IMG/VR virus record: IMGVR_UViG_3300030333_001876
Coordinates: 1-25,283 of that record
DNA: 25,283 bases
Strand: one strand, 5' to 3'
Source: a virus
The first letter of the stretch is position 1. Every line of letters starts with the position of its first letter. The position numbers and the translations under genes were made by a program. A model generated the notes under the pieces. It made no database searches and had not been told where the DNA came from. It saw nothing but the letters and a program-made list of their open reading frames with translations. Positions 7,670 through 9,455 of this stretch are shown here, one piece after another.

Positions 7670-8728
7670 ATGGCAACTACAGTAACATTAACAAAACCAA
7701 CTAACAACTGGCAGAGTTTTTGTGACTGGGTTACTAGTACCGACAACCGCATTTATGTAGGTTGGTTCGGTGTTCTAATGATCCCTGCACTACTAACAGC
7801 AGCAACTGCTTTTCTTATAGCTTTTGTTGCCGCTCCTCCAGTTGATATAGATGGTATTCGCGAACCCGTAGCTGGTTCTCTTCTATATGGAAACAACATC
7901 ATCTCAGGGGCAGTCGTCCCGTCAAGTAACGCCATCGGTATGCATTTCTACCCAATTTGGGAAGCTGCTACAATTGACGAATGGCTCTACAATGGAGGGA
8001 CGTATCAACTCGTCATCTTCCACTTCCTCATTGGCATCTGCGCTTACATGGGACGCCAATGGGAACTTAGTTATAGATTAGGCATGCGCCCGTGGATATG
8101 CGTAGCTTATTCAGCACCAGTGTCTGCAGCTTTTGCAGTCTTCCTTGTATATCCTTTTGGACAAGGGAGTTTCAGTGATGGTATGCCTCTTGGTATTTCA
8201 GGCACTTTTAATTTTATGTTTGTGTTTCAGGCAGAACATAATATTCTTATGCATCCTTTCCACATGCTCGGTGTTGCAGGGGTATTCGGCGGAGCTTTAT
8301 TCGCTGCTATGCACGGAAGTCTTGTTACTTCCTCGCTTATTGCAGAAACGACTGAAGAAGTATCACAAAATTATGGATATAAGTTCGGTCAAGAGGAAGA
8401 GACGTATAATATCGTTGCGGCTCATGGCTACTTTGGGAGACTTATATTCCAGTATGCTTCTTTTAATAATAGCCGTTCTCTTCATTTTTTCCTGGCTACT
8501 TGGCCCGTCGTTTGCATATGGATTACCGCTATGGGAGTTTCAACCATGGCGTTCAATCTTAACGGATTTAATTTCAACCAATCCGTGGTTGATGCAAATG
8601 GCCAAGTCGTTCCTACCTGGGCTGACGTCTTAAACAGAGCGAACTTAGGTATGGAAGTAATGCATGAAAGAAACGCTCACAATTTCCCGCTTGACTTAGC
8701 GGCGACAACGGAGAAACAATATGCCTAA
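7670..8728 (+). CDS. psbA: Photosystem II reaction-centre protein D1
   Basis: A full-length, intron-free D1 of 352 residues. Functional residues are all in register: TyrZ Y161, H190, chlorophyll ligand H198, iron ligands H215 and H272, QB-site S264, and manganese-cluster ligands D170, H332, E333, H337, D342 and A344. The phage copy replaces host D1 as it is photodamaged, keeping electron transport running in infection. Residue 130 is Gln (YMGRQWEL), as in cyanobacterial low-light-type D1. The host-typical Arg225 (SLVRETTE) is Ala here. After the processing site at A344 only 8 residues (ATTEKQYA) remain, about half the usual C-terminal extension. The 3' end overlaps an 18-codon ORF. GC content is higher than in neighbouring genes. 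Confidence 0.99.
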
Positions 8729-8777
8729 AGGCAAAGGTACTTACGGTACAAAGAAAGGGAGACCCCCTAAAAAATAA
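8721..8777 (+). CDS. 18-residue basic micropeptide overlapping the psbA 3' end
   Basis: [18 protein letters not shown]: 18 residues, seven of them Lys or Arg, ending with an AT-hook-like GRP core. The ATG at 8721 lies inside the last psbA codons in a different frame, and GGAGA (8710-8714) sits at ideal spacing as a Shine-Dalgarno sequence. Similar tiny MPKGKGTYG-type ORFs are, to my recollection, scattered in marine phage genomes without known function. A nucleic-acid-binding role is only suggested by charge. Below usual gene-calling limits, hence moderate confidence. Confidence 0.5.
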
Positions 8778-8786
8778 TACAAACGC

Positions 8787-8860
8787 CACGTCCGTTCATC
8801 CATTTTTATGGACGCATGAAAACCAAGGCATGGAACGGGGCTTTGGTAGATTAAGGTATT
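8787..8860 (+). promoter_or_regulatory. Candidate glutamine-II (Downstream-peptide motif) riboswitch
   Basis: Three mutually compatible helices are present. P1 pairs CCGTTC (8792-8797) with GAACGG (8833-8838). P2 is TCCAT (8799-8803) with ATGGA (8808-8812) around a TTTT loop. A pseudoknot pairs ACCAAGGC (8822-8829) with GCTTTGGT (8840-8847), eight pairs with one G-U, crossing P1. The primary sequence (CGTTCATCC, GGACGCATGAA, GGAACGGGG) matches what I know of the Downstream-peptide motif, a glutamine-binding RNA reported from marine Synechococcus, Prochlorococcus and a cyanophage upstream of tiny ORFs. The Shine-Dalgarno AAGG (8853-8856) of the following 19-codon ORF lies just 3' of the pseudoknot, which implies translational control. 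The identification is by eye, not by covariance model. Confidence 0.8.
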
Positions 8861-8863
8861 ACT

Positions 8864-8923
8864 ATGACTTTAACCTATCGTGGCGTGAAGTATGTAAAAA
8901 CTACTCACACAAATTCTAAATAA
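8864..8923 (+). CDS. 19-residue DUF4278-like micropeptide downstream of the riboswitch
   Basis: MTLTYRGVKYVKTTHTNSK, 19 residues. AAGG at 8853-8856 gives a well-spaced Shine-Dalgarno sequence. The opening LTYRGVKY resembles the start of cyanobacterial DUF4278 proteins (K/T-LTYRGVSY), so this may be a minimal version of that family. Downstream-peptide riboswitches are by definition followed by short peptide genes, so the placement supports the ORF. Function is unknown. It stops four bases before the outer-membrane protein ATG, making translational coupling plausible. Confidence 0.65.
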   Translation: MTLTYRGVKYVKTTHTNSK

Positions 8924-8927
8924 CTTA

Positions 8928-9290
8928 ATGAAAAAACTTGCTCTAGCCCTAGCGGCATCTATCGCTTCAGCTCCTGCAATTGCTGGACCTTATGTAAATG
9001 TAGAAACTAATGGTAACTACACTGGATCTGATTACACTTCCAGAGCTACTGATCTACATCTAGGTTTTGAGAACACACTAGGTTCTTTTGACTGGTATGC
9101 ACAAGGCGGTAAGACAATCAATGCCGCTGATGGTGTTGACTCTGAATCTAATTGGTCTGGTAAAGTAGGTGGTTCTGTAGCAGCTACTGATAAGCTAGGT
9201 ATCTATGGTGAAGTAGCTTTCTCAAATGTATTTGATGAAGATACTGATAACACATGGGGTACTAAGCTCGGGGCTAAGTATAGCTTCTAA
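8928..9290 (+). CDS. Small outer-membrane beta-barrel protein with signal peptide
   Basis: A 120-residue exported protein. Residues 1-19 are a classic Sec signal peptide: MKK, a hydrophobic LALALAASIAS core and a cleavage site APAIA before G20. The mature ~101 residues alternate polar and hydrophobic residues in several short strands (YVNVETNG, DLHLGFEN, FDWYAQGGK, GKVGGSVAA, LGIYGEVAFS, TKLGAKYSF) with Asp/Asn-rich turns. The terminal KLGAKYSF fits the C-terminal beta-signal of BAM substrates (polar-x-G-x-x-aromatic-x-hydrophobic) ending in Phe. It should therefore insert into the host outer membrane as a small barrel. Roles such as receptor masking, uptake or envelope weakening are guesses. 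There is no Shine-Dalgarno sequence before ATG 8928; translation may depend on the preceding peptide gene. It is not a recognisable T7 gene. Confidence 0.8.
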   Translation: MKKLALALAASIASAPAIAGPYVNVETNGNYTGSDYTSRATDLHLGFENTLGSFDWYAQGGKTINAADGVDSESNWSGKVGGSVAATDKLGIYGEVAFSNVFDEDTDNTWGTKLGAKYSF

Positions 9291-9428: not shown

Positions 9429-9455
9429 GTCTTACGTAGCGGAACTACGTGAGGT
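9429..9455 (+). other. Stable RNA hairpin upstream of the putative decoration gene
   Basis: CTTACGTAG (9431-9439) pairs with CTACGTGAG (9445-9453), 9 bp with one G-T pair and a CGGAA loop; two further pairs extend the base to 9429/9455. A T-rich leader without a Shine-Dalgarno sequence (9459-9480) follows up to the next ATG. It could be an attenuator, an RNase processing site or a 5'-end stabiliser of the following mRNA. Confidence 0.5.

Follow-up and report, generated by a model that had tools for sequence, protein, structure and literature searches.

The closest described relatives of the locus considered here are the type-2 glutamine riboswitches, which, according to a review covering Klahn et al. 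2018 (PMC6316151), are restricted to marine picocyanobacteria, occur mainly with genes coding for DUF4278 proteins and, as shown for one of Prochlorococcus, activate expression upon binding glutamine. In the same review, DUF4278 also makes up the N-terminus of IF17, the glutamine synthetase inactivating factor encoded by the Synechocystis gene gifB, whose synthesis as a small DUF4278-containing protein is likewise activated by glutamine, there via a glutamine-I riboswitch. In the crystal structure of the type-2 aptamer (PMC6698751), G41 pairs with C19 and the glutamine amide is stacked between C19 and G18; that study also proposed that the ligand-stabilized PK helix frees the RBS. Our inspection of Prochlorococcus finds the same aptamer 5′ of a protein of ~60 residues with three LTYRGxxY-type repeats (YRG/YRR; e.g., MTTLTYRGKNYVQ...ELTYRRNVYTN...ELNYRGVNYTK). 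A smaller cellular counterpart is Yfr6 of Prochlorococcus MED4, a 244-nt transcript with its own promoter that joins a Downstream-peptide 5′ UTR to a 33-aa peptide and is reduced on nitrogen depletion (PMC1242208, PMC2864571). Marine phages, namely T4-like cyanophages and the methylophage Melnitz, carry glutamine riboswitches of the glutamine-I class (glnA, RF01739).

The window, by which we mean the whole stretch of 25,283 nt analysed here (IMG/VR record IMGVR_UViG_3300030333_001876, positions 1–25,283), features a cassette lodged between psbA and the capsid gene that closely parallels the above-described host units. We consider it likely that positions 8783–8923 represent a phage copy of such a unit, in which a glutamine-II riboswitch controls the translation of a micropeptide with a single YRG repeat of the DUF4278 type. 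With the RF01704 elements of Prochlorococcus and marine Synechococcus it shares the aptamer sequence, the three helices, the pocket nucleotides and the placement directly before a short YRG (DUF4278) ORF; it differs from them in its T7-like phage setting, in having one YRG repeat rather than three and in the adjacent capsid gene. The phage peptide equals one repeat of the three-repeat Prochlorococcus protein. Given the common aptamer, the YRG repeat and the link to DUF4278 in the hosts, the phage cassette would work like the host unit, of which it is most simply seen as a streamlined copy. The combination of a riboswitch leader with a very short conserved peptide is also that of Yfr6, which, however, is a cellular gene. 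The glutamine-I elements of other marine phages belong to a different aptamer class, phage group and set of genes, and the C-terminal part of IF17, which inhibits glutamine synthetase, has no counterpart in the phage peptide. Thus, the riboswitch class is already known, and it is the viral setting that appears new: the open-access literature yielded no earlier report of glutamine-II elements in T7-like cyanophages, and database entries may already exist. The features of the cassette are as follows:

8783–8790, plus strand: 5′ strand of the proposed long-range helix P0, ACGCCACG (8/8 pairing with 8879–8886 in the predicted free-state fold; ends 2 nt before the PK strand)
8790–8847, plus strand: glutamine-II (Downstream-peptide, type-2 glutamine) riboswitch aptamer (RF01704 match, covariation)
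8793–8797, plus strand: 5′ strand of the PK helix, CGUUC, pairing with 8833–8837 (GAACG; invariant or compensated in 63 viral aptamers)
8799–8812, plus strand: P1 hairpin, 8799–8803/8808–8812 (outer pair UA, AU, CG or GC among phages)
8813–8815, plus strand: putative ligand-pocket strand C17 G18 C19 (crystal-structure homology; compensatory G19:C41 swap in a variant clade)
8822–8847, plus strand: P2 helix, 8822–8829/8840–8847, crossing PK (both-side changes in 7/8 pairs)
8853–8856, plus strand: Shine-Dalgarno-like AAGG, 7 nt 5′ of the ATG (by sequence)
8864–8923 (stop included), plus strand: 19-codon ORF for the YRG micropeptide MTLTYRGVKYVKTTHTNSK, a single DUF4278-type repeat (DUF4278 and phrog_5049 matches, conserved YRG frame)
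8879–8886, plus strand: 3′ strand of the proposed P0, CGUGGCGU, within the peptide codons R-G-V (pairing with 8783–8790, third-position covariation)

A cmscan search of the whole window recovered RF01704, the glutamine-II family formerly named Downstream-peptide, at 8790–8847 on the plus strand (56.0 bits against a curated cut-off of 33 bits; E 2.8e-11; full model 1–60) as the sole match over any Rfam gathering score, and none of 14 control genomes gave a match to this model over the cut-off. The glutamine-I class was discarded for this aptamer, as RF01739 scores 20.6 bits on the same stretch, under its cut-off of 35 bits. The Infernal comparison proposed in an earlier note on this DNA thus bears out its assignment of the element to the Downstream-peptide or glutamine-II class, for which the kept core nucleotides, the covariation and the associated peptide also speak. 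All the core nucleotides of the crystal structure (C1, G2, G18, C19, A33, G35, C39, G40, G41 and G42; compared with PMC6698751) are present in the window as C8793, G8794, G8814, C8815, A8830, G8832 and C8836–G8839, and by homology C8815 (C19) is expected to pair with G8838 (G41). The three helices described in the earlier note lie where it placed them, save for its outermost pair 8792:8838, which is probably not real because G41 (8838) pairs with C19 (8815) in the structure, and relatives have C, A or T at position 8792 but, within the canonical set, always G at 8838. Its labels need to be brought in line with the crystal structure (PMC6698751): what it called P1 is PK (8793–8797/8833–8837), the helix it named P2 corresponds to P1, and P2 is the “crossing pseudoknot” 8822–8829/8840–8847. 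Likewise, the Shine-Dalgarno sequence (AAGG) and 19-codon ORF that it recognized are both present, with the ORF running past the end at 8860 that it gave for the feature. From these features, we infer that the window RNA binds glutamine and thereby reads nitrogen status.

The compensatory changes that the earlier note suggested looking for in homologous phage loci are found in both P1 and P2. Across 63 distinct viral aptamers, 95.9% of the cells are standard pairs, and the covariation score is 0.399, a value reached by 0/500 shuffles, as opposed to 0.126 ± 0.010 for the shuffles, with slid registers scoring at most 0.087. Covariation is strong in P2, where seven of the eight pairs have changed in both strands, and in P1, whose outer pair has done likewise; PK is nearly invariant, one compensated pair being the sole exception. 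The search pattern behind many of these aptamers fixed the inner CC/GG of P1 and the CATGGAACGG loop, which are therefore uninformative for covariation, and left P2 and the outer P1 pair free.

The ORF for the peptide begins 17 nt 3′ of the aptamer. Its product matches phrog_5049 (E 7e-4) and positions 1–14 of the PF14105 DUF4278 profile (E 9.3e-4, 20.0 bits), where it falls short of the gathering cut-off of 25.3, as it consists of just one short repeat; hence, we see it, by sequence, as a YRG-repeat relative rather than filing it as a DUF4278 domain. The association of aptamer and peptide is obligate in the viral set: a YRG frame lies 3′ of 139/139 viral aptamers with enough downstream sequence (2.8% in shuffled regions), and is closed within 260 nt in 138 of them, the remaining one being that of S-RIP2, where the YRG is inside a 79-codon ORF whose stop lies just past 260 nt. 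To avoid selecting on the aptamer, we also fetched 64 viral loci via the capsid protein, each with at least 500 nt upstream, and searched them with a purpose-built covariance model: 25 have both the aptamer and the YRG ORF, 39 have neither and none has one only (Fisher 2.5e-18, phylogeny not being controlled in this figure). Among 99 distinct cores, no amino acid change is seen at the Y, R, G and second Y, while the R and G codons differ in their third positions, so the peptide is under purifying selection. In the same cores, the first conserved Y (codon 5) is TAT in 95/99 and the second (codon 10) is TAC in 84/99, an opposite codon choice that suggests an RNA-level constraint at the first Y.

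The gene controlled by the window riboswitch is, therefore, most likely the 19-codon YRG ORF directly behind it. The earlier note had the riboswitch setting the translation of the genes downstream of psbA, which finds no support as worded, the tight partner being the YRG ORF in the above 25/0/39 distribution. As for psbA itself, it was dropped as a partner since each occurs without the other: the cassette is found with no psbA annotated upstream in SS120-1, S-TIP28 and MedDCM C3, and psbA without the riboswitch in S-B28 and DSL-LC07. The link of the cassette to psbA is incidental. Two other forms of control were set aside. Leader-peptide attenuation via glutamine codons was rejected, as the peptide has no glutamine. 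Transcription attenuation was rejected, with no terminator-like site found between the aptamer and the ORF, which is consistent with translational control.

Around the cassette, ORF 8928–9290 matches the Pfam family Phage_OMP of cyanophage outer-membrane-like beta barrels (E 6e-44) and is followed, before the next ORF, by a terminator-like hairpin at 9429–9455 with 11 pairs and a T-rich tail. On the other side, a tiny basic ORF at 8722–8778 overlaps the psbA stop and is conserved at the DNA level in SS120-1 as well as the Roseobacter phages CRP-171 and CRP-113. The start at 8928 is only 4 nt past the peptide stop at 8923, and in the phages examined the cassette sits just 5′ of the capsid gene; both observations would suit an arrangement in which a larger unit, be it the OMP-like protein or the run of late genes ending with the capsid gene, is controlled by translational coupling and the micropeptide is a mere leader. 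We deem this unlikely: the gene behind the cassette varies, being the OMP here, a gp222-like gene in P-SSP10 and the capsid after ~250 nt in P-SSP7, but the peptide is constant, and its conservation extends to the amino acids, beyond what a mere frame would call for.

The cassette also displays a feature that seems to set the phages apart from the hosts, namely P0, a predicted phage helix that is new here and has been computed only. In the predicted fold of 8780–8900, 8783–8790 pairs with 8879–8886 and the Shine-Dalgarno sequence is occluded. The 24 nt before the aptamer contain comparable strands in other phages, which could base-pair either with the YRG codons, both sides having changed in step (ACACCACG/CGTGGTGT, ATACCACG/CGTGGTAT, ACGCCGCG/CGCGGCGT; codon-type), or with the RBS (AGTAGACTCCAG/TTGGAGTCTACT, CTCCATAG/CTATGGAG; RBS-type), and the 5′ strand mostly ends 0–5 nt before the PK strand, most often 2 nt. 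With one representative per cluster, complementarity to the RBS or YRG codons is significant at p<0.05 versus shuffles in 14/45 phage representatives, as against 1/45, 5/45 and 0/45 for three segments further upstream. Base composition and shared descent were thereby rejected as the source of the P0 signal, there being no comparable excess in the flanking control segments and only one representative per cluster. At two positions, codon third positions covary with the upstream P0 strand (p≤5e-4 by shuffling, with phylogeny uncontrolled). The duplex energies of native and swapped P0 partners are only modestly apart because many relatives share identical YRG codons. In the few host representatives tested, P0 was undetected (none in groups of four and seven, the latter including some non-cyanobacterial pattern hits).

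Predicted costs of opening the RBS give some indication of what P0 might do; they omit pseudoknot energetics, locking the aptamer always removes competitors, and the P0 class assignment uses the same pairing. For the window, the cost is 6.8 kcal/mol in the free RNA, 0.6 with the aptamer locked and P0 allowed, and 4.6 with P0 blocked. The means are 7.8 free and 4.7 locked for codon-type phages; for RBS-type phages, they are 8.9 free, 9.3 locked with P0 and 3.6 locked without it, i.e., with an RBS-type P0, locking the aptamer alone is predicted to leave the RBS closed. These modelled values fit an ON switch for the window itself. As the partner of P0 is a stretch of codons in some phages but the RBS in others, a single mechanism may not cover them all.

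Hence, we propose the following scheme for the phage glutamine switch. Judging from its position between psbA and the capsid gene, the cassette is presumably transcribed together with the late genes. With no glutamine, the RBS of the window would be hidden in a hairpin involving codons 2–5 and some of the P2 3′ strand, and that of other phages by direct pairing with the 5′ P0 strand. At high glutamine, PK and P2 would form, the P2 strand would leave the RBS hairpin, P0 would hold the YRG codons, and the RBS would stay open, allowing the peptide to be made. The ON direction is what would be expected from the hosts. The peptide might then act in the glutamine or nitrogen physiology of the host, plausibly by imitating or competing with the host YRG proteins. 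The opposite sense, with glutamine turning the peptide OFF, might apply to some phages if P0 blocks the RBS in a manner compatible with the bound aptamer, as hinted by the modelled cost for the RBS type, which locking the aptamer fails to lower (9.3 kcal/mol). We regard this as improbable, however, for the host type-2 riboswitch activates (PMC6316151), and the ligand-stabilized PK has been proposed to free the RBS (PMC6698751). Moreover, by our own reasoning, an RBS-type P0 lies near the PK strand and P2, such that its formation may be sterically incompatible with the compact bound state, and the window itself has a codon-type P0.

The earlier note held such an element to be unusual in a small lytic podovirus, a view that its wide distribution does not support. 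We encountered it in isolated cyanophages by DNA similarity, with cmscan confirming 9 of 12 fetched loci. When whole records were searched, RF01704 was over the cut-off, just 5′ of the capsid gene, in 16 of 25 T7-like cyanophage records (NATL1A-7, P-SSP7, P-SSP2, S-RIP2, P-SSP10, MedDCM C849, P-GSP1, P-SCSP-R27W, SS120-1, S-CBP1, S-CBP4, S-TIP37, S-RIP1, S-TIP28, 9515-10a and MedDCM C3). The remaining nine comprise S-SBP1, with a copy lacking the 5′ half, S-CBP3, with a variant form, and seven with no RF01704 element (DSL-LC07, S-SRP01, S-B28, S-CBP42, S-CBP2, P60 and Syn5). A rigid aptamer pattern had no match in the IMG/VR viral contigs; a pattern scan of IMG/VR with variable gaps returned at least 120 matching stretches. 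The element is a family-wide trait of T7-like cyanophages. The annotation tables of the cyanophage loci examined have no riboswitch feature at its place. Some phage aptamers show much enlarged P1 arms with the core kept, at 80–107 nt in all (L282:1626–1706, L307:330–436 and L254:2571–2654).

The S-CBP3-like phages constitute a distinct clade in which CGCA is replaced by CGGG and GGAACGGG by GGAACGCG, whereby the C19:G41 pair is swapped to G19:C41 and A20 is also changed to G, with PK, P1 and P2 kept. Scanning for this pattern gave 50 viral stretches (including L255:2693–2744, L331:3683–3735, L337:3689–3741 and L349–L392), 47 of which are followed by a YRG ORF; S-CBP3, the sole such record searched with RF01704, scores 16.1 bits, under the cut-off of 33. 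As the glutamine amide stacks between C19 and G18, the swap may alter the affinity or specificity for glutamine in this clade. In S-SBP1 (L010:2487–2541) and L347:3684–3729, the aptamer has lost its 5′ half, and with it the PK strand, but P2 and the YRG ORF are kept, which implies that glutamine control is dispensable for the peptide. That these two phages retain only P2 and the peptide, and that the entire element is enclosed by P0 as by a stem, would also be in keeping with a fixed structured RNA of host origin that serves the stability or processing of late transcripts without sensing glutamine. Such a role strikes us as very improbable, given that the ligand-pocket nucleotides, needless for a plain stem, are invariant in nearly all copies, and that the element is obligately tied to the peptide family of the host.

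If our preferred reading of a glutamine-responsive phage cassette is true, an abundant group of ocean viruses senses the glutamine of the infected cell by means of an RNA and responds by making a tiny peptide, which would couple the expression of viral genes directly to the nitrogen status of Prochlorococcus and Synechococcus and could let the virus adjust the YRG peptide to it. Taking this further, it is conceivable, as a tentative possibility, that T7-like cyanophages run a glutamine signalling of their own: a YRG micropeptide made at high glutamine might imitate or antagonize host YRG/DUF4278 proteins and so steer nitrogen assimilation in infection, with P0 as a new 5′ platform pairing with the peptide's codons or the RBS, and with the S-CBP3-like pocket change possibly altering affinity or ligand. 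The phages with and without the cassette, with half of the sensor lost and with the pocket changed offer natural experiments in this regard, and their peptides are the smallest members of the YRG family, rendering the purpose of the downstream peptide testable. YRG peptides are also seen behind the other glutamine aptamer class in T4-like phages: in DSL-LC02 (L011:1158–1543), a glutamine-I aptamer over the cut-off is followed by a small ORF, behind which a peptide containing the YRG repeat twice is encoded, and S-SCSM1 (L006:1105–1602) displays the same order behind a weak glutamine-I aptamer.
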